Source: a virus. From it: a stretch of DNA of 25,232 nucleotides. The position numbers were made by a program, and so were the translations under genes. The notes under the pieces were generated by a model. The model was not told where the DNA came from, searched no databases, and worked only from the letters and a program-made list of their open reading frames with translations. The stretch lies in the IMG/VR virus record IMGVR_UViG_3300042553_000599, positions 1-25,232 of that record; one strand, written 5' to 3'. Positions 746-25,110 of the stretch are shown here, piece by piece (position 1 is the first letter of the stretch; each line of letters opens with the position of its first letter).

Positions 746-1447
746 ATGAAAAACGACTTGGATTTCGCTATCTTCAAGCGTGCGCAGTCGGGCGACGCGG
801 ACGCTCGCGACGCGATCGCGCGTCATTATCGGTCGTACGTGTTCACGGTAGCGCGGGAGTTTGGGCGCGAAAACCGTGGGGATCCGGACGATCACCGGGG
901 CGCCGCGCTCTTCGCTCTGGCTCGGGCGATCAACCATTACAACCCGGACAAGTGCGATCGGTTCTCCGGATACCTTCGAGCGATCGTAACGCGGGCGCTG
1001 ATGGATCTCAACAAGAAGGACCAGCGGCGTTTCGACCGAACCGTATTCAACCCGACCGACGACGAAGCGGAACCGCTGTTCGACCGGGCGACCGCTCCGG
1101 ACACCACGGCGCCAGAAATCGCCGACGCTATCGAACGAACGAGCGACCCGCTCGCGCGTAGATTGTTCGTGTCGCTTCAATCGACCGGCGATATTCGAGT
1201 CGCGGCGAAACTCTCCGGGGTCCGGACCCGGGTCGCGAGGTACGTTCTCGGATCCGTTTTCGCTCCGAACATGGTAGTTTCATATATGGCGCAGGGCCGG
1301 ACGTTTGAACGAATCGAAACACAATGCCCGCTACCGTTCGATTTTGCGGGCGACGACGGGAGGAATCGTCGCCGACCTTCGCCGCCAATTTCGACCGGTA
1401 AACCCGAAAAACCGGAACAACTCTCACTCTTCGCGGGGGTGCTTTAA
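746..1447 (+). CDS. Phage-encoded sigma-70-family RNA polymerase sigma factor (probable late-gene regulator)
   Basis: The 233-aa product has a sigma region 2-like N-terminus. Residues about 8-100 contain an AQSGDADARDAIARHYRSYV segment, then a segment with LARAINHYNPDKCDRFSGYL and an RAIVTRALMDLNKKDQRR helix, which match the core-binding and -10-recognition helices of the family. Residues about 145-185 contain a helix-turn-helix-like segment with RVAAKLSGVRTRVARYVL, comparable to region 4. The C-terminus is Pro-rich and ends SLFAGVL. The gene sits directly upstream of the small terminase, where many phages keep their late-transcription activator. It has no GCTATCGA motif of its own; a palindromic site lies 26 bp upstream. 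I infer that it switches on the late genes, perhaps by reading that motif. A non-sigma HTH regulator of similar fold is the alternative. Confidence 0.7.
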   Translation: MKNDLDFAIFKRAQSGDADARDAIARHYRSYVFTVAREFGRENRGDPDDHRGAALFALARAINHYNPDKCDRFSGYLRAIVTRALMDLNKKDQRRFDRTVFNPTDDEAEPLFDRATAPDTTAPEIADAIERTSDPLARRLFVSLQSTGDIRVAAKLSGVRTRVARYVLGSVFAPNMVVSYMAQGRTFERIETQCPLPFDFAGDDGRNRRRPSPPISTGKPEKPEQLSLFAGVL

Positions 1448-2002
1448 GTGGGACGACCGGCGAAGATCCCGATCACGAACCCGGACCATCCCGGGCGCGG
1501 TCTCGCTGAACGGATGCTACTTCAGAACGCGACGTTTAGCCAGATTGTCGAAGCGGTGACGAAGGAAACCGGGCGTACGATCTCGAAGGGGACGATTTCG
1601 GGTTACAAGGACAAACTCGTCGCGGCGGGTCGTCTGGAATCGAAAACGAAGCATCAGTACGGGCGCAACCGAAAACCGGCGCCAGAACCGGTCGAAGTCT
1701 CGGATTCCATCGCGGCGCGGATCGCGGCGGTCGATCACGGCGGGCCGATGGGTCGCGCGAAGCGAATGTCCGCAACGATGGAAGAAGCGTATCACCGAGT
1801 GGCGGCGCTGATCGGTCACGAAGCGGACCGGATCCGCTCCGATGCTTCACTCTCCGAACGGGACCGGCGCGACGGGATCAAGTCGCTTTCGACCGAAATG
1901 CGGCGACTACTATCGCTCGCGGCGGCGATCGCGGTCGGGAACGCGAATGATCTTCAGTCGCTGACCGAAGTCGCCGAATCGCTCGACGTGGACGGCGAAT
2001 AA
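1448..2002 (+). CDS. terS: Terminase small subunit
   Basis: This is a 184-aa product with a GTG start immediately after the TAA of the sigma gene. The N-terminus carries a helix-turn-helix (about residues 20-60, with FSQIVEAVTKETGRTISKGT), as expected for the DNA-recognition domain of small terminases. The rest is mostly charged helix (about 105-175), suited to oligomerisation. The gene lies directly before the large terminase and overlaps its ATG by one base (TAATG). Its role would be to recognise the packaging site and bring the large subunit to the DNA. The assignment rests mainly on position and the HTH; the sequence itself is divergent. Confidence 0.7.
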   Translation: MGRPAKIPITNPDHPGRGLAERMLLQNATFSQIVEAVTKETGRTISKGTISGYKDKLVAAGRLESKTKHQYGRNRKPAPEPVEVSDSIAARIAAVDHGGPMGRAKRMSATMEEAYHRVAALIGHEADRIRSDASLSERDRRDGIKSLSTEMRRLLSLAAAIAVGNANDLQSLTEVAESLDVDGE

Positions 2003-3465
2003 TGTTTCATACGCTGAAGGGTTCGAAGGTTGCGCCGAATCCCGCGTCCGCTTGGTTCGGTGGTGAATTCGCAAGGTTTGGGAACGCGAAGCGGGCGTCG
2101 TCGCCGCGTCCGGACAAGCGGCGCCGCGACTATCTCGGATGGTTGAAGTCGAACTCGGATCCGTCGTTCGATTTTACGGCGCCGCATATCGTTAAAATCG
2201 CTTCGACGATCGACGAGGTAACCGGCGGGACGCTCGACCGGGTTCGTATTCATATGCCGCCGCGTCACGGGAAAACCGCGACCGTGACGGTCATGTATCC
2301 GGTCTATCTGCTTCTTCGTGATCCGACGCTTCGGATTCTCGTCACATGCCATACGGCGAAGTTTGCGCGGCGTCTCGGGCGCCGGATCCGGAACCTTGCG
2401 GCGCGTCTCGGAGTGAACATCGCGGCGGACAAGAAAGCGGCGGACGAGTTCGCGACCGACGAAGGCGGTCTCGTTCTCTGTTGCGGCGTCGGGTCGCCGC
2501 CCACGGGCGAAGGGTTCCAATACATCATCATCGACGACCCGATCAAGTCTCGGAAAGAAGCGGATTCGATCGCGTTTCGCGATACGCTCGACGACTGGTA
2601 TACCGACGAAATCTATACCCGTCTTGAACCCGGCGGGCGGATCGTCGGGATATGGACGCTCTGGCATGAAGACGACCTAGCGGGACGGCTCGACGCTCGC
2701 GAGAAATCGGGCGACGCTGACGCTGACAAGTGGCACGTTTTGAAGCTCGCGGCGATCGCGGGTCCGAACGATCCGCTCGGTCGAGACGAAGGCGCCGCGC
2801 TCTGGACTCTCCGGTATCCGATCGAAGCGCTTCGGCGGATCCGCTCGAACATGGCGCGGCGCGACGGTCTACGCGGATGGGAAGCTCTCTACCAGCAAAA
2901 CCCGACGCCATTGTCGGGCGACATGTTCAACGTCGGCGAATTTCGAATCGTCGATCGCGCTCCGGTCGGTCTCGCTTGGGTTCGAGCGTGGGACGTCGCG
3001 GCAACGCGCGGCGGCGGCGACGCGACCGCTTCGGTTCTCATGGGCGAAGATAAATCGACCGCGATCTTCTACATTCGCGACGTGACGCGCTCGAAGGTTG
3101 ATACCGGCGAGCGCGATACGCTGATCGTCGAGACGGCGAACGACGACGGGATCGAAGTCGTTCAAGTTCTCCCGGCGGATCCGGGCGCCGCCGGAAAAGC
3201 GCAGGTTAAATACTGGGGCCGGATGCTTGCGGGGTTCGTGGTTCGGTTCGCGCGTCCCGTCGGTTCGAAAACCGCTCGCGCGGAAAGCTACTCGGCTCAG
3301 GTGAACCTAGGGAACTTCGCGCTCGTTCGCGGGCCGTGGAACGCCGAGTTCATCGAAGAACATCGGCAATTCCCGAACGGTGGTCACGACGACCAGGTCG
3401 ATGCGGCGTCGGACGCGTTCCGCGAGATCGTCGGAAACGCGAAGAGGAAAACCCGCGTTTACTGA
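2002..3465 (+). CDS. terL: Terminase large subunit
   Basis: The 487-aa product has both enzymatic halves of the packaging motor. The ATPase domain shows a Walker A-like MPPRHGKT (residues 85-92) and a Walker B YIIIDD (174-179), followed by the IVGIWTLWHEDDL segment (about 214-226) typical of this terminase family. The nuclease domain has an RNase H-like AWDVAATRGGGDATAS (residues 329-344, candidate metal ligands D331 and D340) and a C-terminal HDDQVDA (462-468). It pumps DNA into the prohead and cuts it. The start ATG overlaps the stop of the small subunit by one base, suggesting translational coupling. The length is normal for the family. Confidence 0.95.
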   Translation: MFHTLKGSKVAPNPASAWFGGEFARFGNAKRASSPRPDKRRRDYLGWLKSNSDPSFDFTAPHIVKIASTIDEVTGGTLDRVRIHMPPRHGKTATVTVMYPVYLLLRDPTLRILVTCHTAKFARRLGRRIRNLAARLGVNIAADKKAADEFATDEGGLVLCCGVGSPPTGEGFQYIIIDDPIKSRKEADSIAFRDTLDDWYTDEIYTRLEPGGRIVGIWTLWHEDDLAGRLDAREKSGDADADKWHVLKLAAIAGPNDPLGRDEGAALWTLRYPIEALRRIRSNMARRDGLRGWEALYQQNPTPLSGDMFNVGEFRIVDRAPVGLAWVRAWDVAATRGGGDATASVLMGEDKSTAIFYIRDVTRSKVDTGERDTLIVETANDDGIEVVQVLPADPGAAGKAQVKYWGRMLAGFVVRFARPVGSKTARAESYSAQVNLGNFALVRGPWNAEFIEEHRQFPNGGHDDQVDAASDAFREIVGNAKRKTRVY

Positions 3466-3473
3466 CCGGTGAC

Positions 3474-3481
3474 GCTATCGA
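3474..3481 (+). promoter_or_regulatory. GCTATCGA motif, 6 nt before portal GTG
   Basis: Exact octamer in the 22-bp gap after the large terminase. The spacer is ACCCGC and the start codon GTG (3488). Proposed as the -10-like core of a phage late promoter giving a leaderless transcript. Confidence 0.65.
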
Positions 3482-3487
3482 ACCCGC

Positions 3488-4693
3488 GTGAGTCTATTTC
3501 GGCGATTGTTCAGCGGCGGCGAGCGCAAACCCGAACGGAAATCGTTTCAGATTTTCCAGGGCGGCGCCGGTCTGGTGCTTTCGAACAACGCGCGGACGGA
3601 ATACCAGAACTCGGCGGTCGCTTCGGTCATGCGGGCGATTGATCGGGGAATGCGAAAGGCGCCGATCGTGGTTCTCGACTCGAATGGAGAACCGTCTACC
3701 GATTCTCGCGCGTGGAAACTGCTCTCGAAACCGAATCCGTACGTCATGCCGCGAGCGCTGATCTCGGCGATCATGTCGAGTCTCGTTATCACCGGCGACG
3801 CGTACGTCGTCCGGGTCTCAGGTCTCGCGGGCGTCGAAGAACTCTGGCCTGTTTTGCCCGGGGATATGTCGCTCATGCGCGACGGCGGCGGAATCCCCAT
3901 TTACTACTCGTATCGCGGGCGACAATTCCCGCTCGACAAGGTGATTCACTTTCAGGACGGCGTACACCCATCCGACCTGATGCGAGGTTATTCGGGGTTC
4001 GCGGCGCTGACCGACGAGATCCTTACCGACTCGGAGTCGAACGCGTATACGCGCTCTCTTCTTTCGAATCTCGGCGTACCGGGCGCGATTATCTCTCTCA
4101 AGGACCACGGCGACGAACTCGACGAGGATACGGCGGAACTGATAAAGGAAAAATTCAAGCGGGCGACCAGCGGTCGGAACCGTGGTTCCGCGATCGTGGT
4201 TACCGTCCCGGTGGACGTCTCGACGCCGGGGTTCAGTCCTGAGCAAATGGCGCTCGACACGATCCGGCGCGTTCCCGAACGCCGAATCTGCTCCGCGATC
4301 GGGATTCCGCCGATTGTCGCCGGTCTCGGCGAAGATCCGAAGTACGACAATTACCGGGCGGCGGTCGAAGTGTTTTACCGGTCGTTCTGTATGTCCTATT
4401 GGCAACTCATGGCGGAAACGCTGACGATCGGTCTCGCTGGCGAACTCGGCGGCGGGTCGGTCGCGTTCGATACGTCCGGGATCGAAGAACTTCAGGAAAA
4501 CGCGGACGCGCGGTCGAAACGCGCGGTCGAAGCGTATCAAGGTGACGTTATCACTCGGAACGAAGCGCGGTCGCTGGTCGCACTCCCGCCGGTGGACGGC
4601 GGCGACGCGTTCGCGTCTCAGTCGAGTACCGGTCGAGCGTCGGCGATCAACAATCTCCGGGCGCGGTCTCAAAAGTCGATTGAATCGTCATGA
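3488..4693 (+). CDS. Portal protein, HK97 family
   Basis: The 401-aa product starts at a GTG placed 6 nt after a GCTATCGA motif. It shows the usual run of HK97/SPP1-type portal features: an N-terminal basic segment (MSLFRRLFSGG), a helix with VASVMRAIDRGMRKAPIVVL, a TGDAYVVRV strand, an IHFQDGVHPSDLMRGYS segment, and near residue 280 the IPPIVAGL stretch preceded by RRICSAIG. Twelve copies would form the ring at one capsid vertex through which DNA passes and to which the neck binds. The end overlaps the next gene by four bases (ATGA). Confidence 0.9.
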   Translation: MSLFRRLFSGGERKPERKSFQIFQGGAGLVLSNNARTEYQNSAVASVMRAIDRGMRKAPIVVLDSNGEPSTDSRAWKLLSKPNPYVMPRALISAIMSSLVITGDAYVVRVSGLAGVEELWPVLPGDMSLMRDGGGIPIYYSYRGRQFPLDKVIHFQDGVHPSDLMRGYSGFAALTDEILTDSESNAYTRSLLSNLGVPGAIISLKDHGDELDEDTAELIKEKFKRATSGRNRGSAIVVTVPVDVSTPGFSPEQMALDTIRRVPERRICSAIGIPPIVAGLGEDPKYDNYRAAVEVFYRSFCMSYWQLMAETLTIGLAGELGGGSVAFDTSGIEELQENADARSKRAVEAYQGDVITRNEARSLVALPPVDGGDAFASQSSTGRASAINNLRARSQKSIESS

Positions 4694-5352
4694 GCCAATC
4701 GGCGTACCTGAACCTAATTCGCGGCGGCGTCTCGTCGCTCGAAGCGGCGATTGCGAAACTCGAACGTACCGGCAACGTGGACGCGTTCGCGGCGCGGTTC
4801 GCTGATATTCTGGAAGAGGTTCATCTAGGCGCCGTGTATCAGGGTCGGACGCTCGCGGGCGTCACGGGTCGGATCGGCGACGACGACCGGACTTTGGCGC
4901 GGGAACTCGTCGATCGACAAGCGGAATTCGCCGAAGGGTTTCTCGACGACTTGGATTCGGGACGCTACACCAGCGCGGACGGAAAGGTATCGGTTCCCGC
5001 GATCAGGAACCGCGCTTTCATGTATCTCGAATCGGTCCGGGGATCCGCGAACGAAGCGTTCGTCGTGTTCAGCGAACCGGACGATACTTTCGAGTGGGAA
5101 CTAGGACTCGCGGAACACTGCGCGGACTGCTTGGAACTCGCGCGACTTTCGCCGTTCGAGATCGACGAACTTTACACGAAACCCGGTCAGTGCGATACCG
5201 ACTGTCGCTCGCGGTGTCGGTGCAAACTTCGACGCGTCCGCGACCAGGTGTCGGGGTTTGACTACGTGGATCCGTACGACATTTCTCGCGGCGGGTCCGG
5301 GGTCGTCTCGGCGCCGTCTCGCTCGAAGCCGCGCGTCGCGGCGTCCGCGTAA
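4690..5352 (+). CDS. Minor head / head morphogenesis protein with Cys-rich C-terminus
   Basis: The 220-aa product follows the portal with an ATGA overlap, the usual place for a minor head protein of the SPP1 gp7 / Mu F type. The N-terminal half is helical; residues about 125-180 contain the family's cysteine cluster (C144, C147, C168, C172, C176, C178, in ELGLAEHCADCLELARLS and CDTDCRSRCRCKL), a probable metal site. The member here is short compared with full-length Mu F-like proteins. A role in head assembly or in protecting ejected DNA is inferred from the family and position. Confidence 0.75.
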   Translation: MSQSAYLNLIRGGVSSLEAAIAKLERTGNVDAFAARFADILEEVHLGAVYQGRTLAGVTGRIGDDDRTLARELVDRQAEFAEGFLDDLDSGRYTSADGKVSVPAIRNRAFMYLESVRGSANEAFVVFSEPDDTFEWELGLAEHCADCLELARLSPFEIDELYTKPGQCDTDCRSRCRCKLRRVRDQVSGFDYVDPYDISRGGSGVVSAPSRSKPRVAASA

Positions 5353-5355
5353 CGC

Positions 5356-5363
5356 GCTATCGA
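5356..5363 (+). promoter_or_regulatory. Orphan GCTATCGA motif with no start codon after it
   Basis: This is an exact octamer four bases after the minor head stop. Unlike the other intergenic copies, it has no ATG or GTG at 5-9 nt; the first start codon downstream is the GTG at 5482, which has its own motif. An intrinsic terminator ends about 100 nt downstream. It therefore behaves like a promoter for an untranslated RNA rather than a translation signal. Confidence 0.65.
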
Positions 5364-5369
5364 CTCTCG

Positions 5370-5466
5370 CGCCGCAAGGTTTAGATTTTCAACAAGTCCA
5401 GAACACACGAAGCAAGCCAAGACAATACATAGGCCGGGACGTTCGAGTCGTTCCCGGTCATTTTTT
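5370..5466 (+). ncRNA. Candidate small non-coding RNA between orphan motif and terminator
   Basis: The interval from about 6 nt after the orphan octamer to the T-run of the terminator is about 97 nt. It has no ATG or GTG on the plus strand. Its middle part (about 5380-5430) is much richer in A than the neighbouring genes, and the 3' end is the terminator hairpin. No known RNA family is recognised and the exact ends are guesses. An untranslated leader or unused remnant is the alternative. Confidence 0.45.
5434..5466 (+). terminator. Intrinsic terminator before head protease
   Basis: CCGGGA (5434-5439) pairs with TCCCGG (5452-5457), extended by CG/CG across a one-base bulge. The T-run TTTTTT at 5461-5466 follows. 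The next GCTATCGA motif starts two bases after the T-run. Confidence 0.75.
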
Positions 5467-5467
5467 C

Positions 5468-5475
5468 GCTATCGA
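5468..5475 (+). promoter_or_regulatory. GCTATCGA motif, 6 nt before protease GTG
   Basis: Exact octamer with spacer CGGCGC and start codon GTG at 5482. It follows the terminator T-run almost directly, so the protease and capsid genes would need a promoter here if that terminator works. Confidence 0.7.
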
Positions 5476-5481
5476 CGGCGC

Positions 5482-6045
5482 GTGAAACACGAACTAACGT
5501 TCGAGATCAAGATGATCGAACCATCGGGCGGCGACGGTCCCGGCGGTTTTGCTGGTCACGTCGCGGTATTCGGGAACGTCGATTCCGTCGGCGACCGGAT
5601 CGTCCCGGGCGCGTTCGCGAAACACTTGGAGTTCTTCAAGTCGTCCGGATACGCGTCGTACAACCATTTCGGGACGGCGCTACCGGTCGCGACCATCGCG
5701 GACGCTTACGAAGATGCGAAGGGGTTGTACGTCGAGTTCGAATTTCACTCGACGCGCGAGGCGCAAGACGTCCGAACCGTGATTCGCGAGCGACTTGATC
5801 GCGGTAAGTCGGTGAAGTGTTCGATTCTTTATCAGACGATCGGCGCGAAGGACGTCACCGAGAACGGTCGGACGGTTCGCGACCTTACCGAACTGAAGCT
5901 ATACGAAGCGGGCGCCGTGGCGATCCCGGTGAACGATCAAGCGGGCGTAGTCGCGGCAAAATCGGCGCCGACTCCGGACGCTATCGACGGCGCGAGGGTT
6001 TCGCCGCTGAACTCGCTTTACTTGCGGTTCCGTGGCGGGCGATAA
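5482..6045 (+). CDS. Head maturation protease, HK97 prohead protease family (S78)
   Basis: The 187-aa product starts at GTG 5482, 6 nt after a GCTATCGA motif. It has the prohead protease pattern: FAGHVAVFGNVDSVGDRIVP near residues 23-42, a candidate catalytic His62 in YNHFGTALPVA, and a candidate nucleophile Ser114 in KSVKCSILY. An LTELKLYEAGAVAIPVN segment at about 135-151 corresponds to the family's C-terminal core strand. It would cleave the N-terminal scaffolding part of the capsid protein during head maturation, which fits its place immediately upstream of the capsid gene. Confidence 0.9.
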   Translation: MKHELTFEIKMIEPSGGDGPGGFAGHVAVFGNVDSVGDRIVPGAFAKHLEFFKSSGYASYNHFGTALPVATIADAYEDAKGLYVEFEFHSTREAQDVRTVIRERLDRGKSVKCSILYQTIGAKDVTENGRTVRDLTELKLYEAGAVAIPVNDQAGVVAAKSAPTPDAIDGARVSPLNSLYLRFRGGR

Positions 6046-6051
6046 AAGAAA

Positions 6052-7296
6052 ATGACGTATACCGAACTTATCGAAGCGCTAAAAGCGAAGCGCGTGGAAC
6101 TCGAAGGATTGTTCGCGAAGCATCGCGGCGACGACGGGAAGTTCCATGCCGACATTCCCGACGAGGTGGTCGCCGAGATCGAAGCGAAGTCCGCTGAGGT
6201 CGAATCGCTCGACCTTCAAGCGAAGGCGCTCGAAGCGAAAACCGCGAAGGTTGCGGATCTCGAAGCGAAGAATTCGCGGATCGTGGTTCGCGAGCGTCCG
6301 AACGTTGCTCCGGTTCAGTCCGGCGACGCGGGCGCCGCTCCGGAGTTCACCGATCTCAAGTCGGCGTTCGCTGATTTCGCGTCGAAGTCGGACCGCGACA
6401 TCGTTTCGCAACTCTCACGACCGGGCGGCATCACGCTCGACGTGGACGCGAAAGCGGTCATGTCCACCGGCGCGGGCTGGGCGCCGGGTCTCGGTCGCGG
6501 CGCTTATGTCGGGTCGCCGCAACGAACGCTCGACTTGCTCGACGTCATGCCGACCATCGAATCGTGGCCTTTGCCAACGTATACGTTCCCGCTCGAATCG
6601 ACCATGACGAACGCGGCGGCGGAACGGGCGGAATCGGTCGAAGCTACGGCGTCGGCGTTCGCTGAATCGACGTTCGTCACTACCATGACCGACGTTTCGC
6701 TACGAATGATCGGTCACTCGCTCCCGGTTTCGATGGAACAACTCGAAGACGTGGGCGACGTGACGCCGTACCTGAACGATCGAATGATCTACGGCGTTCG
6801 CCGCCGGTTGAACGATCAAATCATCGTCGGTAACGGAACCGCGCCGAACATTCGTGGACTTCGAAACTTCGCCGGGATCAACACTGGCGCGAAGGGTTCT
6901 CAAACGAACGACGACGCGCTAGCGGCGGCGATTGCGTCGGTTCAAGCCAACGGCGAAACGACTCCGAACACGATGATCGTCCACCCGACGGATTACCAAA
7001 AATTCCGCCAGGGCAAGTCGGCGACGGGCGACCCTATCGCGTGGGATCCGACGGTCGGTTACGTTCAACCGCTGTTCGGTCTCATGCCGATCATCACGAC
7101 CGCCATGACGCAAGGTCGCTCGCTCGTGTTCGACTCGGCGTACACGATTCTCGTTTACAAGCGCGGCGTAGTTCTCGAAGTGACCAACGCTCACGCGTCG
7201 GACTTTACGAACGGAATCGTTCGGTTCCGCGCGTCGGTTCGCGCTGGTCTCGCTTTGACTCGCGTCACGGCGGTATATGAACTGACCGGACTCTAA
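6052..7296 (+). CDS. Major capsid protein, HK97 fold
   Basis: The 414-aa product starts 6 bp after the protease stop, with no GCTATCGA motif; it is presumably carried on the protease transcript. Residues 1 to about 80 are a highly charged heptad-like coiled coil (for example EAKSAEVESLDLQAKALEAK), matching the delta/scaffolding domain that the protease removes in HK97-type phages. A linker rich in Ala, Pro and Asp follows at about 85-100. The shell domain contains conserved-looking segments such as ESWPLPTYTFP, SLRMIGHSLPVSMEQLEDV, a GTAPNIRGLRNFAGI loop and a C-terminal IVRFRASVRAGLALTRVTAV. There is no separate scaffold gene, as expected for this type. Confidence 0.93.
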   Translation: MTYTELIEALKAKRVELEGLFAKHRGDDGKFHADIPDEVVAEIEAKSAEVESLDLQAKALEAKTAKVADLEAKNSRIVVRERPNVAPVQSGDAGAAPEFTDLKSAFADFASKSDRDIVSQLSRPGGITLDVDAKAVMSTGAGWAPGLGRGAYVGSPQRTLDLLDVMPTIESWPLPTYTFPLESTMTNAAAERAESVEATASAFAESTFVTTMTDVSLRMIGHSLPVSMEQLEDVGDVTPYLNDRMIYGVRRRLNDQIIVGNGTAPNIRGLRNFAGINTGAKGSQTNDDALAAAIASVQANGETTPNTMIVHPTDYQKFRQGKSATGDPIAWDPTVGYVQPLFGLMPIITTAMTQGRSLVFDSAYTILVYKRGVVLEVTNAHASDFTNGIVRFRASVRAGLALTRVTAVYELTGL

Positions 7297-7325
7297 CGGG
7301 GTCCGTTCGTTCGCCAGGTAGCGGA

Positions 7326-7362
7326 AGCGCTCGTCGTAAATTGCGGCGGGCGTTTTCCGTTT
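7326..7362 (+). terminator. Probable intrinsic terminator after capsid gene
   Basis: AGCGCTCG (7326-7333) can pair with CGGGCGTT (7347-7354), including two G-T wobbles, followed by a T-rich tract (TTTTCCGTTT). The next GCTATCGA motif begins at 7366. The stem sequence is closely related to that of the next terminator at 7622-7650. Confidence 0.55.
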
Positions 7363-7365
7363 GTC

Positions 7366-7373
7366 GCTATCGA
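7366..7373 (+). promoter_or_regulatory. GCTATCGA motif, 9 nt before ATG 7383
   Basis: Exact octamer directly after the terminator-like tract. The spacer is CCTTGCGTT. It selects the ATG at 7383 over an upstream in-frame ATG at 7341 that lies within the terminator hairpin. Confidence 0.65.
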
Positions 7374-7382
7374 CCTTGCGTT

Positions 7383-7586
7383 ATGCCGGTTGAAAATCAA
7401 GGACTTACATCGACGCCGACGGTTGCGGTCATCTACGCGAACGCCGGGGCGCCGACCGACGGGACCACGTACGCGAATATCGCGCCGAAGGGTGCGGTTT
7501 TAGCGGACACCACGAACGCGAATCTTTATATCAATACCGGGACGCTCGCGTCGCCGGTCTGGAAACTCGTCACTCGCGCGGCGTAA
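7383..7586 (+). CDS. Small virion-like protein (67 aa), function unknown
   Basis: Starting at the motif-linked ATG 7383, the product is 67 aa. It contains AGAPTDGTTYANIAPKGAVL and a C-terminal NLYINTGTLASPVWKLVTRA. Short proteins with a 'GA...D...LYvNtGt...P.W' ending are often found in phage head and fibre genes. Placement straight after the major capsid gene suggests a head-associated part, possibly decoration. It has its own motif and is framed by two terminators, so it may be made as a separate single-gene transcript. There is no catalytic motif, signal peptide or membrane segment. Confidence 0.65.
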   Translation: MPVENQGLTSTPTVAVIYANAGAPTDGTTYANIAPKGAVLADTTNANLYINTGTLASPVWKLVTRAA

Positions 7587-7621
7587 GAACCCGCGCTCGA
7601 CCTAGTGGATTCGAGACGCTC

Positions 7622-7650
7622 GCGCTCGTCGGTTTCCGGCGGGCGCTTTT
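7622..7650 (+). terminator. Intrinsic terminator after 67-aa gene
   Basis: GCGCTCG (7622-7628) pairs with CGGGCGC (7640-7646) with one wobble; the 11-nt loop can add GG/CC pairing. TTTT (7647-7650) follows. The GCTATCGA motif of the next gene lies 8 bp downstream. Confidence 0.75.
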
Positions 7651-7658
7651 CCGTCCGC

Positions 7659-7666
7659 GCTATCGA
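7659..7666 (+). promoter_or_regulatory. GCTATCGA motif, 9 nt before ATG 7676
   Basis: Exact octamer with spacer CTCATCACA, directly after the terminator at 7622-7650. Confidence 0.65.
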
Positions 7667-7675
7667 CTCATCACA

Positions 7676-8020
7676 ATGCAACGCGTAGACTTTTTCGGTA
7701 GTCCGCCCGCGCTTTCTGCGTACCGTTTGATCGGCGCGGCGGGTTCGGTCTCAGCGTCCGGGGTTTGGCTCGACCTGTACGGGTGCCGGGTCGGGAACCC
7801 GTGGACGGCGACGATTACGGCGTCTACCGTGACCGACTTCGCGACCATCGCGGGCGGCACGATCCCGGACGGCGCGGTCGGTGTCTCGCTGACGTTCTCG
7901 GCGTCGGTGAACGTCGATACAGTCGGGGCGCTTACTGGCGGAACCGCTATGGCGTCGGGGAATAAAGCGACGTTCCGAACAATTGCGGCGGGCGACTGGG
8001 TTATCGGGCGGGTCGCATAA
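7676..8020 (+). CDS. Small protein (114 aa) upstream of beta-helix protein, function unknown
   Basis: The 114-aa product is rich in Ala, Gly, Thr and Val. It has a beta-strand-like pattern (WTATITASTVTDFATIAGG and GVSLTFSASVNVDTVGAL) and ends AAGDWVIGRVA. I do not recognise the family. The start ATG is 9 nt after a GCTATCGA motif and the stop overlaps the next ATG by one base (TAATG), so it is probably translated together with the beta-helix protein. It could be an adaptor anchoring that protein to the head, or a decoration protein; this is inferred from position only. Confidence 0.65.
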   Translation: MQRVDFFGSPPALSAYRLIGAAGSVSASGVWLDLYGCRVGNPWTATITASTVTDFATIAGGTIPDGAVGVSLTFSASVNVDTVGALTGGTAMASGNKATFRTIAAGDWVIGRVA

Positions 8021-9786
8021 TGTCGAGAACCTTCGGAGATCAACCGGGAACCGTCGGCGCCGCCCGATTGAATCCGGTCGCGTTGCTTCTTCCGTCCGGT
8101 ATCAGTGACGACGTCGCGATCAACGCGGCGTTACAAGCGGCAAAATCTGCCGGTGGTGGAACGGTCACGCTCGGCGCTGGAACCTTCAACCTGAACGCGT
8201 CGCTTTTGATCCCGACCGGCGTCCGGCTCGTCGGTTCCGGCATGTTCGCAACTTCGCTTACAATGGCGGCGGCTACTCCGCGACCGGTTATCGTGAACGA
8301 AAGCGGCTTCGCCGGTAACCAGCGGATCGCGGTTCGAGACTTGACGGTCATCGCGTCGAGCAACCAAGCGCGAACGTCTCAGTTTCCGAACATCACGACG
8401 GCGGGACTCTCTGACGGGTCGCACTATCAAAGTCCGCTCACGCTTATTCGGTGTTCGAATGTTTTGATTGAAAACGTCCGCGTGCGGGTATGGGGCGGTA
8501 ACTCCATTCTTATTTCGGGCGGGCGCGACGGGATCGTCCGGAACATCGTATTCGACCAGATTACCGGGGCAAGCTCCAACGCGGACGGAATCCATATCAT
8601 GGGGGACGACACGACGGTCGATTCTCAGTCGCCGGTCCCGACGGTTGCGTGGCTTTTCGAGAATATCTCGGCTCCAAACCTGAACGACAACATTGTCGCA
8701 TTGATTGCGACGGACTACGCGAACTGGAGGACGACGGAGGGCGATCTAGACGATATTATCGTGCGCAACGTTGACGCGACGCTTGTTTCTCAAGCGACGG
8801 TACGGATCATCGCTCAAAAAGCGGGAACCAGCGGAACGCAGAGAACGGCGCGGAACATCGTGGTTGACGGTATCCGTTCTCGCACTACGACCGGTTCCGT
8901 TGCCGCGTTTGAGATCATCGAAGATTCTGGAGACTCGTCGGGCCAAGGTGCGCTGAACCTTTCCGGAACGACGTCGGTCGAGAACATCGTCGCGCAAAAT
9001 ATCTACCACGATTGTCCAGCGGCGACCGGGGTCATCGTTCGCTTAACGGCGGGACTGCTTCAGCGCGGGGTAGTGGTTCGCAACGTTCAGCGGTTCGGTA
9101 CGACGACTCGGACCGGGGCGCAAGATGTTTTCATTACCGGCAACTGTACTGATGTCACGGTAGACGGCGCGAAAGATGTCGGGTGTACGGGCGGGTTTAC
9201 GATTCTCGCGAGTAATGTCACCGGCGGCGGAAAGCTCACGATTCAAAATTGCGTTTCGACCGGCGGGAACACTTCGACTTCAATCGCGCAAGTTACCGGA
9301 AGTCTTGACCGACTCGCCTACATTGGGAACTACCTTTCGGGCGGGACGTATCTCGGCGACCATTCGCAAACCGCAAGTTCTGGAACTCCTGAGATTGTAG
9401 CGGTCGGGAACACGTTTAAGGGCGCGTACGCTATGTTCACTCCGCGAGCGTCGGGGGTTTACGTTCTGAGTGGGAACTCTGGAAGTTTTACCGAAAACGT
9501 TATCCGTCCGAACGGTTCGTCGATTGCGGTCACGATTCGCGGGGCTGGTAACCTTTTTAGTGGTTCGCTTTCTGGCGGGACCATTTTTGCAAACGCGGCT
9601 CATGCAAATATTCGGGTTCATTCGCCGGATTTCCCGGTATCTGACATCACGCGACTTTACTCGTGTATCGCTGGCGATCTAGTCTGGCGTTCATCGACAA
9701 CGGTCGGACTTCACAAGTGTACGGTGACGGGTACGGCGGGTACGGGCGGGAATGCGGGGACGGCGGCGACGTTGGTCGCGCTTTAG
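8020..9786 (+). CDS. Right-handed beta-helix (pectate-lyase-like) virion protein
   Basis: The 588-aa product starts at ATG 8020. Residues about 26-80 (GISDDVAINAALQAAKSAGG, then a TVTLGAGTFN strand and LLIPTGVRLVGSG) are the typical entry of phage beta-helix spikes and Pectate_lyase_3 proteins. The body has repeated strand turns such as LIRCSNVLIENVRVRVWGGN, DGIVRNIVFDQITGASSNAD and NIVAQNIYHDC. Such proteins usually bind or degrade host surface polysaccharide. They normally lie with the tail-fibre genes; here the gene is between capsid and neck genes, so the product may sit on the head or be a tailspike encoded out of place. The C-terminus (about 540-588) is a Gly/Thr-rich end domain. No catalytic residues can be assigned from sequence alone. 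Confidence 0.8.
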   Translation: MSRTFGDQPGTVGAARLNPVALLLPSGISDDVAINAALQAAKSAGGGTVTLGAGTFNLNASLLIPTGVRLVGSGMFATSLTMAAATPRPVIVNESGFAGNQRIAVRDLTVIASSNQARTSQFPNITTAGLSDGSHYQSPLTLIRCSNVLIENVRVRVWGGNSILISGGRDGIVRNIVFDQITGASSNADGIHIMGDDTTVDSQSPVPTVAWLFENISAPNLNDNIVALIATDYANWRTTEGDLDDIIVRNVDATLVSQATVRIIAQKAGTSGTQRTARNIVVDGIRSRTTTGSVAAFEIIEDSGDSSGQGALNLSGTTSVENIVAQNIYHDCPAATGVIVRLTAGLLQRGVVVRNVQRFGTTTRTGAQDVFITGNCTDVTVDGAKDVGCTGGFTILASNVTGGGKLTIQNCVSTGGNTSTSIAQVTGSLDRLAYIGNYLSGGTYLGDHSQTASSGTPEIVAVGNTFKGAYAMFTPRASGVYVLSGNSGSFTENVIRPNGSSIAVTIRGAGNLFSGSLSGGTIFANAAHANIRVHSPDFPVSDITRLYSCIAGDLVWRSSTTVGLHKCTVTGTAGTGGNAGTAATLVAL

Positions 9787-9797
9787 ACGTACCCGGC

Positions 9798-9805
9798 GCT
9801 ATCGA
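9798..9805 (+). promoter_or_regulatory. GCTATCGA motif, 9 nt before ATG 9815
   Basis: Exact octamer with spacer CTCGGCGTT. It picks ATG 9815 as the start rather than the in-frame ATG at 9752 inside the beta-helix gene. Confidence 0.7.
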
Positions 9806-9814
9806 CTCGGCGTT

Positions 9815-10339
9815 ATGGCAACAATTGCAAAACATCGGCTTTGCTGGGACGAATCGCGAACTCGACTCGTCGCGGATCATGACGTCTCGGCGGTCTCGCT
9901 CGCGTGTACTCCCGGCGACGAACTGACCGGCGACCTAGAATCGGCGTACGTGGCTTCGTTTCCCGAACCTGTTTCCGATCCGGTCCCAGTGGTTCCGGCT
10001 GGTGCGGTTTCTCCGACCGGCGATTTCGCGTTTACGGTCGCGCTCGAAGGCGAAGCGCTCGTCGTCACGATCGACGGGAAATCGCTCGCGCTCTCGGAAT
10101 TCAAGGCGGGCGACCTGAAGGATCTTGCCGAGTGGATCGGCGTCGAAAAGGGTGGTAAGCGTGACGAGGTTTACGACCGCGTAGCCGCTGAACTGCTGAC
10201 GTTCTTCACCGGCGGCGCGACGCTGGTCACCGCTTCGGTTTCGTACGTGGACGACGTCGCTGTCGTGTCCTACTCGGTGACCGGTGGTCCCGAAGTGGAT
10301 CCGAAAACCGGCGACGACGAGGATCCCGAAACCGAGTAA
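9815..10339 (+). CDS. Head/neck-region protein with SAP/HeH-like segment, unknown function
   Basis: Using the motif-linked ATG, the product is 174 aa. Residues 1-45 are a compact start (MATIAKHRLCWDESRTRLVA), then an acidic Pro/Val linker. Residues about 95-128 (FKAGDLKDLAEWIGV, then KGGKRDEVYDRVAAELL) resemble the helix-extended-helix of SAP/HeH motifs that bind DNA or protein. The C-terminus is strongly acidic (DPKTGDDEDPETE). Proteins with a similar SAP/HeH motif occur in phage head gene clusters between capsid and connector genes. The next gene starts 6 bp after the stop. Confidence 0.65.
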   Translation: MATIAKHRLCWDESRTRLVADHDVSAVSLACTPGDELTGDLESAYVASFPEPVSDPVPVVPAGAVSPTGDFAFTVALEGEALVVTIDGKSLALSEFKAGDLKDLAEWIGVEKGGKRDEVYDRVAAELLTFFTGGATLVTASVSYVDDVAVVSYSVTGGPEVDPKTGDDEDPETE

Positions 10340-10345
10340 AACCCC

Positions 10346-10924
10346 ATGCCCTACCCGACCGACTCCGAAGTCTACGCGTATCTTTCCGCCGCCGGTTTTC
10401 CCGTTGGCGGCGATACGTCCGACGTAGCGCGGGTTCGGTCGGGTGCGATCTCAGCGTTCGAGCGCGGGACCGGATTTTCCCCGTTCATCGCGACCGCGAA
10501 CACGGTCGTCTACGACGGCGACTGGGTCGCGTCGCTCGTTCTTCCGCTCCGGGTGTTCGAGTTTGATACGGCGGTTGTGCTGATCGACGACGCCGCGCAA
10601 AATCGCAACGTCGGCTACCGATGGAATCAAACCCGCGACCCGCGCTGGTCGCTCGACGTGCTGGTCGGTGGTACCACGCTGAAGGTAACGGCAAAAGCTG
10701 GCGGCGCTCTCGAACTCAGCGACGAAGCGTTTGAAGCGATTCTCGGTTATTGCGTGGTCCTGTACGCGGAAGCGAACCCGGAACATCACGCAAACTTGAT
10801 TTCGCAAAAGGTCGGAGACGTGACGGCGTCTCGAAGTTCCGACGAGGGTTCCGCGATCGAAGTCTTGCGAAAGCGGTTCGCGAAAGCGGTTCGGGACAAT
10901 CGGCGCGGTGGTGTCTTGTGCTGA
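10346..10924 (+). CDS. Head-tail connector protein, gp6-like
   Basis: The 192-aa product opens MPYPTDSEVYAYLSAAGF and has a helical N-terminal segment, a central beta part with AVVLIDDAAQNRNVGYRWNQ, and helices near the C-terminus (LSDEAFEAILGYCVVLYAEA, then EVLRKRFAKAVRDNRRG). The pattern and position suit the adaptor ring that docks under the portal. It lies 6 bp after the previous stop, with no GCTATCGA motif, so it shares the upstream transcript. Its end overlaps the next gene's GTG start by seven bases. Confidence 0.6.
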   Translation: MPYPTDSEVYAYLSAAGFPVGGDTSDVARVRSGAISAFERGTGFSPFIATANTVVYDGDWVASLVLPLRVFEFDTAVVLIDDAAQNRNVGYRWNQTRDPRWSLDVLVGGTTLKVTAKAGGALELSDEAFEAILGYCVVLYAEANPEHHANLISQKVGDVTASRSSDEGSAIEVLRKRFAKAVRDNRRGGVLC

Positions 10925-11256
10925 ACCCTTACCCGCATTGGGTGACGCATACGAAAGCGGTTCCGGTCGCTGGTATCTCGGGGGCTGAAGAATCGGTCGG
11001 GTTCCCGGACCAAGGTCGCCGGATCCGCGCGAGCGTTCAACCCGCGACGTTCTCGCGAGCGTTCGCCCGCGCCGGGGTCGAGACTTCGTCGGGCTATATC
11101 GTCATGACGAAACCAGCGGACGCGTCGGGGATCCACCAAGGGGACCGGCTCGCGTTCGGCTCACTCTCGCTGGTGGTCATGGCAGAACCGAAGGTCGAGC
11201 AATTCTGGACCGGCGTAGACCATGCCGTCATCGTCGCCGAACTCCCGAAACCATGA
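10918..11256 (+). CDS. Probable head-closure / stopper protein
   Basis: The best start is GTG 10918, giving 112 aa beginning MLNPYPHWVTHTKAVPVAGI and overlapping the connector gene by seven bases; a longer in-frame ATG at 10750 would overlap it by 175 bases. The C-terminal half looks like a small beta-barrel (HQGDRLAFGSLSLVVMAEPK) and includes FWTGVDHAVIVAELPKP, similar in layout to head-closure proteins of siphophages. The assignment is from position and general character. Its stop overlaps the next ATG (ATGA). Confidence 0.6.
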   Translation: MLNPYPHWVTHTKAVPVAGISGAEESVGFPDQGRRIRASVQPATFSRAFARAGVETSSGYIVMTKPADASGIHQGDRLAFGSLSLVVMAEPKVEQFWTGVDHAVIVAELPKP

Positions 11257-11648
11257 ACGATTTTCTAGCGCTGTTAATCTCGAAAGCGGTTTCCGCGTGG
11301 GGCGTCTCAGCGTCCGCCGTCGTCATCGGTCCGAACCGCGCGGCGAAGCTCTCGACGCCGTTTGTCGTTATCACGTTCGACGAGGATTCCCGGACGCCAT
11401 TCGCGGGCGGGTTCGACTACTCGATCCCGTCGGTCGAAGTCTGGTATCACGGCGAACTTACCGGCGAAGGTGACCGGGCGAAGTCCGCGATGATCGAGTC
11501 GTTCGCGGCGGCGTTCACGGTTCAAGAGACCGCAAGTTACGGGATCGAAGAATTCGCCGGGATCATCGACGCCGACTGGGACGAGGCGCCGCGCGAGTCT
11601 ACGGCGGTACTCGGCGTCCGGTTTTCCGCGTCGTTCTCGGAGTGCTGA
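11253..11648 (+). CDS. Probable tail terminator / neck protein
   Basis: The 131-aa product has an N-terminal helix (MNDFLALLISKAVSAWG), beta strands with PFVVITFDEDSRTPFAGGF and SVEVWYHGELTGEGDRAK, a helix (AMIESFAAAFTV), and a final strand AVLGVRFSASFSEC. This alpha/beta order and length are usual for proteins that cap the siphovirus tail tube at its head end. It is the last gene of a four-gene overlapping or tightly spaced block (9815-11648). I cannot exclude another neck role. Confidence 0.55.
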   Translation: MNDFLALLISKAVSAWGVSASAVVIGPNRAAKLSTPFVVITFDEDSRTPFAGGFDYSIPSVEVWYHGELTGEGDRAKSAMIESFAAAFTVQETASYGIEEFAGIIDADWDEAPRESTAVLGVRFSASFSEC

Positions 11649-11649
11649 C

Positions 11650-11657
11650 GCTATCGA
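11650..11657 (+). promoter_or_regulatory. GCTATCGA motif, 9 nt before endolysin ATG
   Basis: Exact octamer starting two bases after the preceding stop codon, with spacer CTGGTTACT and ATG at 11667. Confidence 0.65.
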
Positions 11658-11666
11658 CTGGTTACT

Positions 11667-12215
11667 ATGCCGGTTTCACCGAAGCCCGATTTCGTGACTC
11701 GCGTCACCGCTGACGAGTGGGCGGCGCTCCCGCTCTCCGAACGGGCGCTTTTCGTCGCTCGCTCGCAACTCGACGCGAAAGTCGCCGAGTTTCCGCGCGG
11801 TTCGAACTGGGGACCGGCGGTCTCGCTTTACCTTCGGATCGCGGGTCTCAGAAACCCGGCGCCGTGGTGCGCGGCTTTCGTTTACTGGTGTCTCGTCGTG
11901 GCGGGCGCGGATCGACGAAAGCTCTGGTCGAACCCGGCTTCGACTTACTCGCTCTGGAAGTGGGCGGCGAACTCCGGGCGGTTGTCGCCGGTTCCCGGTC
12001 GCGGGACCGCGTTCGTTTGGAACGCTTCGGGCGGCGGTCATACCGGGTTTGTCCGCGCGGTTCTCCCGGGAAACGTGGTCGCTACGATCGAAGGGAACAC
12101 GAACGCGGGCGGATCCCGTGAGGGTTACGAGGTCGCCGAACGGAAACGCGACGTTCTTCAGATTTTCAAAAGCGGGCCGCGATACGGGTTTATCGACTTC
12201 GGGGGCGTCTCGTGA
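11667..12215 (+). CDS. Endolysin, CHAP/NlpC-P60-type cysteine peptidase or amidase
   Basis: The 182-aa product is a single-domain peptidoglycan hydrolase. It has the papain-like triad in the expected order: Cys68 in APWCAAFVYWCL, His125 in GGGHTGFV, and Asn144 in IEGNTNAGG. The segment EFPRGSNWGPAVSLYLRIAG before the cysteine and a Trp-rich stretch (WSNPASTYSLWKWA) after it match the family. No separate cell-wall-binding domain or signal peptide is visible. It would degrade host peptidoglycan at lysis; a virion-associated entry lysin is less likely because a holin-like gene follows directly, overlapping by four bases (GTGA). Confidence 0.88.
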   Translation: MPVSPKPDFVTRVTADEWAALPLSERALFVARSQLDAKVAEFPRGSNWGPAVSLYLRIAGLRNPAPWCAAFVYWCLVVAGADRRKLWSNPASTYSLWKWAANSGRLSPVPGRGTAFVWNASGGGHTGFVRAVLPGNVVATIEGNTNAGGSREGYEVAERKRDVLQIFKSGPRYGFIDFGGVS

Positions 12216-12493
12216 CGTTCTCACAATTCGAAGCGGGCGCGGTCGCGTTCGGTAGCTCGCTCGCGGCGGCGGTCGCTCTGTTTTCTGACGTCACGAACGG
12301 ATTACCGTCGAACTGGGAAGGGTGGACCGCTCCGGCGATTCTCGCGGGGCTGGTCGGGTTTCTCGCGACTCGTCAGCAAAAGTCGATCGACCAGCTATCC
12401 GAACGGGTCTCGCATATGACCGAGACAAACTCGACGCTCGCGGCTGAGATCCGGTCGCTCGTGGCGACGCTATCGACTCGGCGTCATGAATGA
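12212..12493 (+). CDS. Holin-like small membrane protein
   Basis: The 93-aa product starts at a GTG overlapping the endolysin stop. It has two hydrophobic segments (about 9-27, GAVAFGSSLAAAVALFSDV; about 37-52, GWTAPAILAGLVGFLA). A charged, heptad-like C-terminus follows, with QLSERVSHMTETNSTLAAEI. This is the layout of small phage holins, which open the membrane for the endolysin. The last codons also contain the GCTATCGA motif for the next gene, and its reading frame ends eight bases inside that gene. Confidence 0.7.
   Translation: MTFSQFEAGAVAFGSSLAAAVALFSDVTNGLPSNWEGWTAPAILAGLVGFLATRQQKSIDQLSERVSHMTETNSTLAAEIRSLVATLSTRRHE
12469..12476 (+). promoter_or_regulatory. GCTATCGA motif inside the holin gene, 9 nt before ATG 12486
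   Basis: Exact octamer encoding part of Ala-Thr-Leu-Ser-Thr near the holin C-terminus, with spacer CTCGGCGTC. Here the motif is held at its standard distance although it must also be coding sequence. Confidence 0.7.
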
Positions 12494-13727: not shown

Positions 13728-14207
13728 ATGGCAGGCTTTAGCGTTGATGATCTGATCTCAGCATTCCGCCCGGAATCGACGGTTCATACCGTGGATCTCG
13801 GGCGCGGTTTTTCTCTCACGTTTCGAACGGTTACCGACGCGTCGGAACTTGCGAGCATGAAAACGCGGGCCGAAAAGTTCGCGAAGATCCTCTATTCGAA
13901 AGCGTGTACCCCGGCGCTGGTCGCGGTTCGCCCGGAGAACCGAACCGTCGCGGTAAACGCGTGGTTTCTCTCGCAGGTCGCGACCGACCCGAAATGGTCT
14001 CAAGCGGACTGGCTGAAGCTCGCGCGGGACGCGGCGTTCGTTTTCGAAGCGGCGTTTCAAGCTATGAACGAGGCGCAAACCCGGGCCGAAGTCGAGTCCG
14101 AATCGACCATCGTCGAAGAACTGGGGGAATTCTCCGCGCTGACGGTTGGCGCCGATCAATCCTCACCGTCGCGCGAGACGTCTTCCGAAAACATCCCGAC
14201 GACCTGA
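13728..14207 (+). CDS. Tail assembly chaperone, short (G) form
   Basis: The 159-aa product lies between the tail tube and the tape measure genes, the standard position of the lambda G-type chaperone. It is mainly helical: DDLISAFRPESTVHTVDLGR at the start, then LTFRTVTDASELASMKTRAE, WSQADWLKLARDAAFVFEAA and a polar tail ending SSENIPTT. A second frame, shifted by -1, is open past its stop to 14314 and gives an extended form. The chaperone coats the tape measure protein during tail assembly in related phages. Confidence 0.75.
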   Translation: MAGFSVDDLISAFRPESTVHTVDLGRGFSLTFRTVTDASELASMKTRAEKFAKILYSKACTPALVAVRPENRTVAVNAWFLSQVATDPKWSQADWLKLARDAAFVFEAAFQAMNEAQTRAEVESESTIVEELGEFSALTVGADQSSPSRETSSENIPTT

Positions 14208-14314
14208 CGATCCGCGAACGATCACAACTACTCGAATTTCTAGCGCTCCGATTTTTAGAAGACGAGGCAAACGCGGACGCGCGGGCGACTGAGGGCGACC
14301 TAGTCGGCGACTGA
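13728..14314 (+). CDS. Tail assembly chaperone, long (G-T) form by probable -1 frameshift
   Basis: The frame ending at 14312-14314 is offset -1 from the G frame and is open throughout the overlap. Its part downstream of 14190 has no start codon and fills the otherwise empty 127 bp before the tape measure gene. It encodes a sensible helical segment, HPDDLTIRERSQLLEFLALR followed by FLEDEANADARATEGDLVGD. Candidate slip sites in the correct phase are CGAAAAC (14186-14192) and a GGGGG run in GGGGGAA (14123-14129). Neither is a perfect canonical heptamer, so the exact point is uncertain. A separate gene is unlikely for lack of a start. Confidence 0.6.
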
Positions 14315-14333: not shown

Positions 14334-16010
14334 ATGTCGGTCACCGTTGACGAAGTTATTCAGCGATACACGCTCGACGACCGCGCTTCGAAGGGAGTTC
14401 GGTCGCTGGTCACGGCGAACGACGCGCTCGCGTCGGCGAATTCCCGCGCGAACTCAGGGTTTGCGGGACTCTCCGGCGCCGCGTCTCGGTTCGGCTCGCT
14501 CGCGTCCGCCGCGTTCTCAGCGACGACCGCCGCGATCGTGGGCGCAACCGCCGCCGCCGTCGGGTTTGCCGCTGTCGCGGTGAACGCCGCCGCTGATATG
14601 GATTCCCTGAAACGGGCGCTCGTCGCGACTGCCGGATCCGCTGAAGAAGCGGAACGACAATTCGCGCGGTTGAAAGAGGTCGCGAAGCTACCGGGTCTCG
14701 GACTGAAAGAAGCGGTTCAGGGGTCGGTACGACTTCAACAAGCGGGGTTCTCGGCGAACCTTGCTGAACGGGCGCTTATGGCGTTCGGGAGCTCGCTCGC
14801 GCTCGTCGGTGGTGGTAAAGCGGAACTCGACGGGGTTTCTATGGCGCTCACTCAAATCGCGTCGAAGGGCAAGATTTCAGCTGAAGAAATCAACCAGCTA
14901 GCCGAACGGGTTCCGCAGATTCGCCAAGCGATGATCGCGGCGTTCGGGACCGCTGATACCGAAGCGCTTCAGAAACGAGGGATCGCGGCGACCGCGTTCG
15001 TTGAATCCGTCGTGTCGCAACTCGAAAAGGTGCCGCGCGTCTCTGGCGGGATCCGGAACGCGCTCGAAAACTTCGGCGACGCGGCGTTCCAAGCGTTTGC
15101 AACGATCGGGAACGCGATCGCGAAGGTACTTGTTCCGGCGCTCGACGTGGTCTCGTCGTACTTCGTTTTTCTCGTCGATTCCGGCGTACTCGACCAGGTG
15201 TCCCGGTCGATGCTCTCGATCTTCAATCTCGGCGGCGCAGGATCTTCGACCGCGCTCGTTCATGGTCTCTCGTGGGTTGTCGCGACGCTGAAGAACCTTC
15301 CGAGACTTGCGGCGGACGTCGGCGATTACCTTTCCGGCGCGTTTAAGACGGTGGGTGAAAATCTTTCGACCGCGTTTAAGATCGGGTTCGGAATTTTTAT
15401 CGGCGCTCAAGCGGTCGCGCTGATCTCGAACGTCGTTCAACTCGCGAAGGCTTTTATGCTGGTCGCTCGCGCGGTTCAGGCGTGGGCGACGGCGCAAGGG
15501 ATCGCGACGTCTCTCACGGGCGCGGGTCTTGCGATCACGGCGGCGGCGGTCGCGGCGGGCGTCGGGATCTACGCGCTCACGTCGAAAATGTTCGACGGGG
15601 TCGCGAGTTCGATCGACGCGGGCGTCGGCAATATCAAGAACTTACCGGCGTTTCAAGCGATCGCGAAGGATCAAGCGTCCCTAGTATCCCAATTCGCCGG
15701 ATACCAAGCGAAGCAAGCGGACAACGCGTCGCGCTCGAAGGTAGACGGTCCGACTTCGCCCGCGTCGATGCTTTCGAAGATCGCGGCGGCGACGACGAAA
15801 ACGGCGGTTAACACTGAAAAGGCTCTCGATCTGAACCGGTTCGCGCTCGGCGGCGGCGACTTGTCCCGGGCGGCGGTTTCCCCGATCGAACTCCGGCGGG
15901 TTCGCGGTGGTCGCCGCGTAGACGTCCGCGTCACCGGCGCCGACGAAAGCCTCAACCGACTCTTTTCGGACTTCCTTTCGCGAGCGCTCCCGCTTTACGG
16001 TGGTGGATAG
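14334..16010 (+). CDS. Tape measure protein
   Basis: The 558-aa product has an N-terminal phage tape-measure domain. Residues about 85-230 contain MDSLKRALVATAGSAEEAER, KEAVQGSVRLQQAGFSANLA and ISAEEINQLAERVPQIRQAM, typical of that family. There are hydrophobic Ala/Gly-rich stretches at about 55-90 and about 345-420 (for example GLAITAAAVAAGVGIYALTS). It is short for a tape measure; at roughly 1.5 angstrom per residue it would set a tail of about 80 nm. A long stretch of Asp, Ser and Arg occurs near the C-terminus (VRGGRRVDVRVTGADESLNR). The next gene starts at the base after its stop. Confidence 0.85.
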   Translation: MSVTVDEVIQRYTLDDRASKGVRSLVTANDALASANSRANSGFAGLSGAASRFGSLASAAFSATTAAIVGATAAAVGFAAVAVNAAADMDSLKRALVATAGSAEEAERQFARLKEVAKLPGLGLKEAVQGSVRLQQAGFSANLAERALMAFGSSLALVGGGKAELDGVSMALTQIASKGKISAEEINQLAERVPQIRQAMIAAFGTADTEALQKRGIAATAFVESVVSQLEKVPRVSGGIRNALENFGDAAFQAFATIGNAIAKVLVPALDVVSSYFVFLVDSGVLDQVSRSMLSIFNLGGAGSSTALVHGLSWVVATLKNLPRLAADVGDYLSGAFKTVGENLSTAFKIGFGIFIGAQAVALISNVVQLAKAFMLVARAVQAWATAQGIATSLTGAGLAITAAAVAAGVGIYALTSKMFDGVASSIDAGVGNIKNLPAFQAIAKDQASLVSQFAGYQAKQADNASRSKVDGPTSPASMLSKIAAATTKTAVNTEKALDLNRFALGGGDLSRAAVSPIELRRVRGGRRVDVRVTGADESLNRLFSDFLSRALPLYGGG

Positions 16011-24855: not shown

Positions 24856-25096
24856 ATCCGCAACCGCAACCACAATCGACGTGGTCGGTGCCCAGGTCGC
24901 GAACGTTCACCCATCGACCGGACTTCACCGCGTCGCAAACTTCCGCGTCGGTCGCTAGAATCTCGCGGGTTGCGCTCGCGTACGCGTGAACGAACTTCTT
25001 CGCCGGGAACCCGCCGGGTCGCTCGACGGTTCGGTCGCCGGACCCGGTGTACCGGAAACGGTCGCCGGATTCGTCGAATTCAATCGCGATATTCAC
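24737..25096 (-). CDS. Minus-strand small protein (119 aa) with Cys-Gly cluster, unknown function
   Basis: It is read from GTG 25096 on the minus strand, 6 nt after a minus-strand GCTATCGA motif, and ends at TAA (24739-24737). The product starts MNIAIEFDESGDRFRYTGSG, contains FVHAYASATREILATDAEVC and a DCGCGCGS cluster near residue 75, and ends in a Pro/Glu-rich tail (EFPEPQPIAPTVEPELSKPK). No known family is recognised; the cysteines could bind metal. It is the only gene supported on the minus strand here, and its 3' end overlaps the plus-strand gene 24484-24855 by 119 bp. It may start a leftward gene block or be a single gene. Confidence 0.65.
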   Translation of the reverse strand: MNIAIEFDESGDRFRYTGSGDRTVERPGGFPAKKFVHAYASATREILATDAEVCDAVKSGRWVNVRDLGTDHVDCGCGCGSTSSPEVETGESSPVAEFPEPQPIAPTVEPELSKPKARK

Positions 25097-25102
25097 GCCG
25101 AG

Positions 25103-25110
25103 TCGATAGC
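25103..25110 (-). promoter_or_regulatory. GCTATCGA motif on minus strand, 6 nt before GTG 25096
   Basis: The plus strand reads TCGATAGC; on the minus strand the octamer is followed by spacer CTCGGC and GTG. It is the only minus-strand copy in the window and is tied to the only minus-strand gene. Confidence 0.7.

Follow-up and report, generated by a model that had tools for sequence, protein, structure and literature searches.

A promoter-like octamer and an intrinsic terminator delimit a candidate small non-coding RNA between head genes of an HK97-type phage

The DNA analysed here (the window) is a viral contig of 25,232 bases that carries an HK97-type head-and-tail cluster. The genes that bear on the analysis are the following.

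746-1447, plus strand: sigma-70 region-2 protein, 233 residues; putative reader of the octamer described below
2002-3465: large terminase, with Terminase_6N/6C domains
3488-4693: HK97-type portal
4690-5352, plus strand: head-region gene matching phrog_24776 (E 2.1e-10); stop codon TAA at 5350-5352
5482-6045, plus strand: prohead protease (Peptidase_S78, E 2.8e-15), with a GTG start
6052-7296: HK97-type major capsid protein, with its ATG at 6052
14334-16010: tape measure

The best terminase match in bacterial genomes was 51% identical and came from a Capsulimonadaceae assembly, with 45% in a Chthonomonas assembly; we take both groups to be Armatimonadota. The protease matched proteins in Armatimonadota genomes at up to 48% identity, compared with about 34% in isolated phages. 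Since the terminase and protease matches both point to that phylum, the host of the phage is likely armatimonadotal. Directly before the tape measure gene, an ORF at 13728-14207 overlaps a -1 frame ORF reaching 14314, and this pair (13728-14314) is likely a tail-chaperone frameshift. A DNA methyltransferase-like gene at 21453-22190 is apparently split by a stop into 21453-21611 and 21636-22190, the second part of which has a database match.

We found 17 exact copies of an octamer, GCTATCGA, in the window, where 0.9-1.4 would be expected. The 10-mer that contains it, CGCTATCGAC, occurs 12 times, compared with an expectation of 0.15-0.35 (whole window, both strands). Scored as a 9-mer, the site stands 4-10 nt ahead of a gene start in 13 of its 16 plus-strand copies; no unrelated 9-mer showed such placement before gene starts, the runners-up being shifted versions of the octamer site. 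The orientation of the octamer agrees with that of its gene, and terminators sit directly upstream. When the copies were aligned, they stood out, besides the core, mainly at the start codons and at a C/purine pair, with C at +13 in 14 of 17 and a purine at +14 in 15 of 17, counted from the octamer start; no conserved base pattern of a -35 element was seen among them. Start codons lie 0, 1 or 3 nt past this pair. GTG follows the octamer by 6 nt at genes 3488, 5482, 21453 and, on the minus strand, 25096, and ATG or GTG follows it by 9 nt in nine genes, with single cases at 5 and 7 nt. Because the C/purine pair keeps its distance from the octamer while the start codon does not, we prefer a transcription start to a ribosome signal. 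The sequence pattern indicates that the octamer is very probably a promoter. A preliminary description of this DNA had seen the best evidence for transcriptional initiation in the single copy at 5356; a start-signal role for the octamer holds up, but the whole set of copies is the stronger evidence.

On the minus strand, the copy at 25096-25110 has its core 6 nt ahead of a GTG that opens an ORF on that strand (25096-24737), and the octamer signal thus serves both orientations. Most genes that lack an octamer overlap their predecessor or abut it and need no promoter. Inspection by eye of upstream sequences revealed no clear Shine-Dalgarno sequence before any gene of the window, which agrees with leaderless translation, and the late mRNAs appear to be leaderless. 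Like the leaderless mRNAs described previously (PMC3160421), they would have their start codons within 0-3 nt of the site where transcription is predicted to begin. Their promoter differs from those of that report (PMC3160421) in that the octamer is not of the TANNNT type; it appears to be phage-specific. Candidates for analogous signals elsewhere were rejected: the repeated 8-mers in the related loci L256, L257 and L264 are palindromic or tandem repeats away from gene starts, and ACTATCAA in L098 is likewise not at gene starts.

Between gene 4690-5352 and the protease gene lie the following features.

5355-5364, plus strand: late-promoter core CGCTATCGAC with the octamer GCTATCGA at 5356-5363 inside it (the orphan copy)
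5368-5371, plus strand: predicted transcription start, read from the aligned copies; C5368/G5369 pair, alternatively 5371
5369-5466, plus strand: predicted non-coding transcript of about 98 nt; no start codon, non-coding score, A-rich
5432-5466, plus strand: intrinsic terminator; stem 5432-5459, then A, then a U-run (TTTTTT) at 5461-5466
5467-5476, plus strand: next promoter core CGCTATCGAC, with its octamer (5468-5475) 6 nt ahead of the protease GTG (5482)

The orphan octamer is exact, lies 3 nt past the TAA of gene 4690-5352 and belongs to a full 10-mer matching at 10 of 10 positions. Its position just past a stop codon is shared by many working copies, and those at 11649, 13311, 13710, 14318, 21438 and 22191 likewise begin 1-4 nt past a stop. 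We found no ATG, GTG or TTG in the 103 bases of 5364-5466, which bears out the earlier observation of an exact octamer at 5356 with no start codon after it. The copy is not unique in this respect, contrary to the orphan status it had been given, as two others also have no adjacent start codon.

1126-1134, plus strand: copy inside the sigma-like gene, with its octamer at 1127
5979-5988, plus strand: copy inside the protease gene, with its octamer at 5980; predicted start at 5994, 58 nt ahead of the capsid ATG (6052)

The octamer at 5980 lies 64 nt before the capsid ATG, has a perfect C/G start and is probably the capsid promoter; the copy at 1127 may serve the terminase genes or be a chance occurrence. 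The orphan is the sole copy that has a terminator and no gene behind it. At its initiator, G/C stands in the usual place of the C/purine pair (+13/+14) and CG is found one position earlier, nearer the octamer; a C/A pair is likewise one base early at the 12793 copy. Because G/C replaces the usual initiator, the orphan promoter could be weaker than the other copies.

The composition of the interval is also unusual. Over the 63 nt of 5370-5432 the A fraction is 0.40, a value as high being found in 13 of 5034 windows, and the GC content is 0.44, with 45 of 5034 windows as low; the A-richness noted previously was thus confirmed. Codon scores in the three frames were -0.49, -0.92 and -1.00, where the 1st percentile of in-frame gene windows is -0.21. 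The interval 5369-5466 is non-coding, and none of its frames resembles the phage's own coding sequence. A short protein read from an unusual start codon would have room, as an ATT at 5385 begins an open stretch of 15 codons and the frame that passes through 5369 stays open as far as the protease start; with every frame scoring below 1% of real gene windows, we regard such a product as barely credible.

Folding of 5430-5468 gave -16.6 kcal/mol (z -3.45), and 0 of 200 shuffles were as good, so that the intrinsic terminator previously placed at 5434-5466 was recovered with slightly wider bounds. It ranks fifth among 27 plus-strand T-runs. The top five are all intergenic, and in four cases an octamer follows directly (5468, 7366, 7659 and 12793); a simple consensus terminator scan was uninformative here (28 found, 26.7 expected). 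The second octamer, reported earlier to follow the terminator directly and to serve the protease, was found at just that place.

The terminator by itself needs no small RNA to explain it, because the capsid gene and other units also end in terminators just before an octamer. It might simply end a portal-g4690 transcript begun at 3474, the orphan octamer being inert or having another role, and the window is indeed expected to contain about one copy of the 9-mer by chance. However, a chance copy of the full 10-mer in the 1109 non-coding bases of the gene strand has an expectation below 0.01, and the orphan gap measures 129 nt where the other terminator-bearing gaps before octamer genes measure 86-89 nt. 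We consider it highly improbable that no separate RNA is made. Another reading starts from the protease octamer directly behind the terminator: transcription from 5356 would partly pass the terminator, giving a second protease mRNA whose leader measures about 113 nt, or would interfere with the promoter at 5468, and in either way would tune the protease dose. Protease dose matters for capsid maturation, and the 5980 copy seems to give the capsid gene a long-leader start as well. The rank of the terminator among the five best on the plus strand speaks against such passage, and no ribosome-binding sequence was seen by eye before the protease GTG; tuning of this kind appears improbable.

In an exact search of viral contigs, only one other contig, L009, contained the interval. 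It is identical to the window over 2080-12274, interval included; therefore the zero differences say nothing and covariation cannot be read from this pair. All 36 differences between the two contigs fall within 1564-2079, and many of them affect third codon positions in gene 1448-2002. The remaining 10.2 kb that the contigs share are identical, and 1564-2079 looks like a recent recombination tract. Viral contigs and genomes were scanned with single proteins, alignments and patterns for diverged relatives suited to covariation; these scans yielded only the near-identical L009 and distant phages (about 30-50%) without the octamer set. Blastn of the interval against phages and plasmids and a DNA search of 291 Armatimonadota genomes gave short, chance-like matches only. 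Two Armatimonadota prophages (L363 and L366) have the order portal, g4690, protease, capsid with short g4690-protease gaps, no octamer and no such unit. Judged from the sequences compared, the RNA, if real, is lineage-specific.

In a related prophage, L373, an extra coding sequence lies between the g4690 homologue and the protease. This observation suits a reading in which a small gene once stood between 4690-5352 and the protease and was lost, leaving its promoter behind as the orphan octamer, with any RNA a functionless by-product: octamers normally start genes, and no coding signal is left in the interval. Against this, the promoter core is intact in all 10 letters, the A-rich, low-GC interval is unlike decayed native gene sequence of the phage, and decay is not expected to give a precise promoter-to-terminator unit. 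We therefore think a relic unlikely. On balance we favour, with modest confidence, the reading of the interval as a self-contained transcription unit of the late regulon whose product is a terminated non-coding RNA about 98 nt long. Production of such an RNA seems fairly probable; an independent function for it is less likely than not.

The role of the RNA is the least certain part of this reading, and a late trans-acting or protein-binding, lineage-specific small RNA is the most likely. In being intergenic, about 98 nt long and non-coding, with a putative promoter of its own and an intrinsic terminator, it resembles the small regulatory RNAs of phages, from which it differs in its late-type promoter, its place inside the head cluster and its status as a prediction. 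Outside the terminator the RNA folds no better than shuffled sequences (z -0.91). Antisense pairing to the phage's own gene starts did not exceed chance, 92 of 200 shuffles being as good, and an Rfam search of the interval returned no family at threshold; sub-threshold hits to STnc240 (E 3.6) and SdsR (E 1.6) had E values too poor to count. A T-loop-like TTCGAGT in the terminator loop was discarded as a tRNA hint, as no tRNA was found and TTCGA has 89 copies here.

The preliminary description had also raised, as speculation, a packaging role like that of phi29 pRNA. The two share the position of a phage RNA near head genes, but here there is no three-way junction and no Rfam match, and an ordinary large terminase takes the place of gp16. 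Since the terminase is ordinary and accompanied by an HK97-type portal, protease and capsid, and since the weak fold outside the terminator has no junction and matches no RNA family, the packaging idea found no support.

The candidate reader of the octamer is the sigma-like protein encoded at 746-1447. It matches the Pfam family Sigma70_r2 (E 1.7e-6), is SigI-like over residues 8-112 and has SigI6 as its PDB match; its PHROG matches are weak and listed only as sigma factors. Only region 2 was matched and no match to region 4 was found, and a diverged region 4 is possible. The C-terminus of the protein is KPEKPEQLSLFAGVL, with QLSLF at residues 225-229, four residues before the end, and this is the sole QL[S/D]LF among the 30 window genes scanned. 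QL[S/D]LF is a common bacterial clamp-binding motif (PMC12309361), and clamp-binding transposases usually carry their clamp motif at the C-terminus (PMC4549789). By its motif, then, the protein would have a C-terminal segment that binds the sliding clamp. A single-sequence structure model was too poor to use (mean pLDDT 38).

These features recall late transcription in T4, whose promoters have an octamer at -13 to -6 and no -35 element and are read by gp55, a protein with a region 2 and a C-terminal clamp-binding segment joined by a linker that may be unstructured (PMC1524935, PMC2988020). As in the T4 system of gp55, gp33 and the clamp gp45, we find an 8-base, -10-only promoter (at about -14 to -7 from the predicted start) before late structural genes, without a -35 element, and a small protein of the sigma family that has region 2 and, after a linker, a putative clamp-binding C-terminal segment. 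The promoter here is CGCTATCGAC, however, where the T4 consensus is TATAAATA; the clamp motif belongs to the bacterial QLSLF type, the mRNAs appear leaderless, and the phage is not T4-like but small and HK97-type, and its relatives are found in Armatimonadota genomes. No homology of the sigma-like protein to gp55 was detected, and tblastn in phages gave one weak unannotated match. Because there is no gp55 homology and the motif sequence differs, we do not place the phage in the gp55 system; at most, its system works like T4 late transcription.

Taken as a mechanism, the sigma-like protein, with its region 2 and QLSLF, would read the octamer, and the -10-only promoter CGCTATCGAC directly past the stop of gene 4690-5352 would start RNA polymerase near 5369. 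The RNA, about 98 nt long, would end at the intrinsic terminator 5432-5466, and a fresh copy of the same promoter would then start a leaderless protease mRNA. As in T4, the sliding clamp may perhaps tie late transcription to DNA replication. If produced, the RNA would be a rare non-coding member of a phage late structural regulon and would mark the octamer as a true promoter. A bolder reading, in our view quite unlikely, is that an HK97-type phage, probably of Armatimonadota, independently evolved a T4-like, replication-coupled late programme, in which a region-2 sigma binds the host clamp via QLSLF and reads a -10-only 10-mer, with leaderless late mRNAs and a dedicated non-coding RNA for head assembly. 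A clamp-motif region-2 sigma and 17 near-identical promoter-like sites whose start geometry is fixed would together allow a direct test of whether clamp-coupled late transcription evolved outside the T4 family. Just 5' of the sigma-like gene, at 504-725, lie direct and inverted copies of AGAAACCA/TGGTTTCT, nine of the ten in the window, in an iteron- or operator-like cluster.
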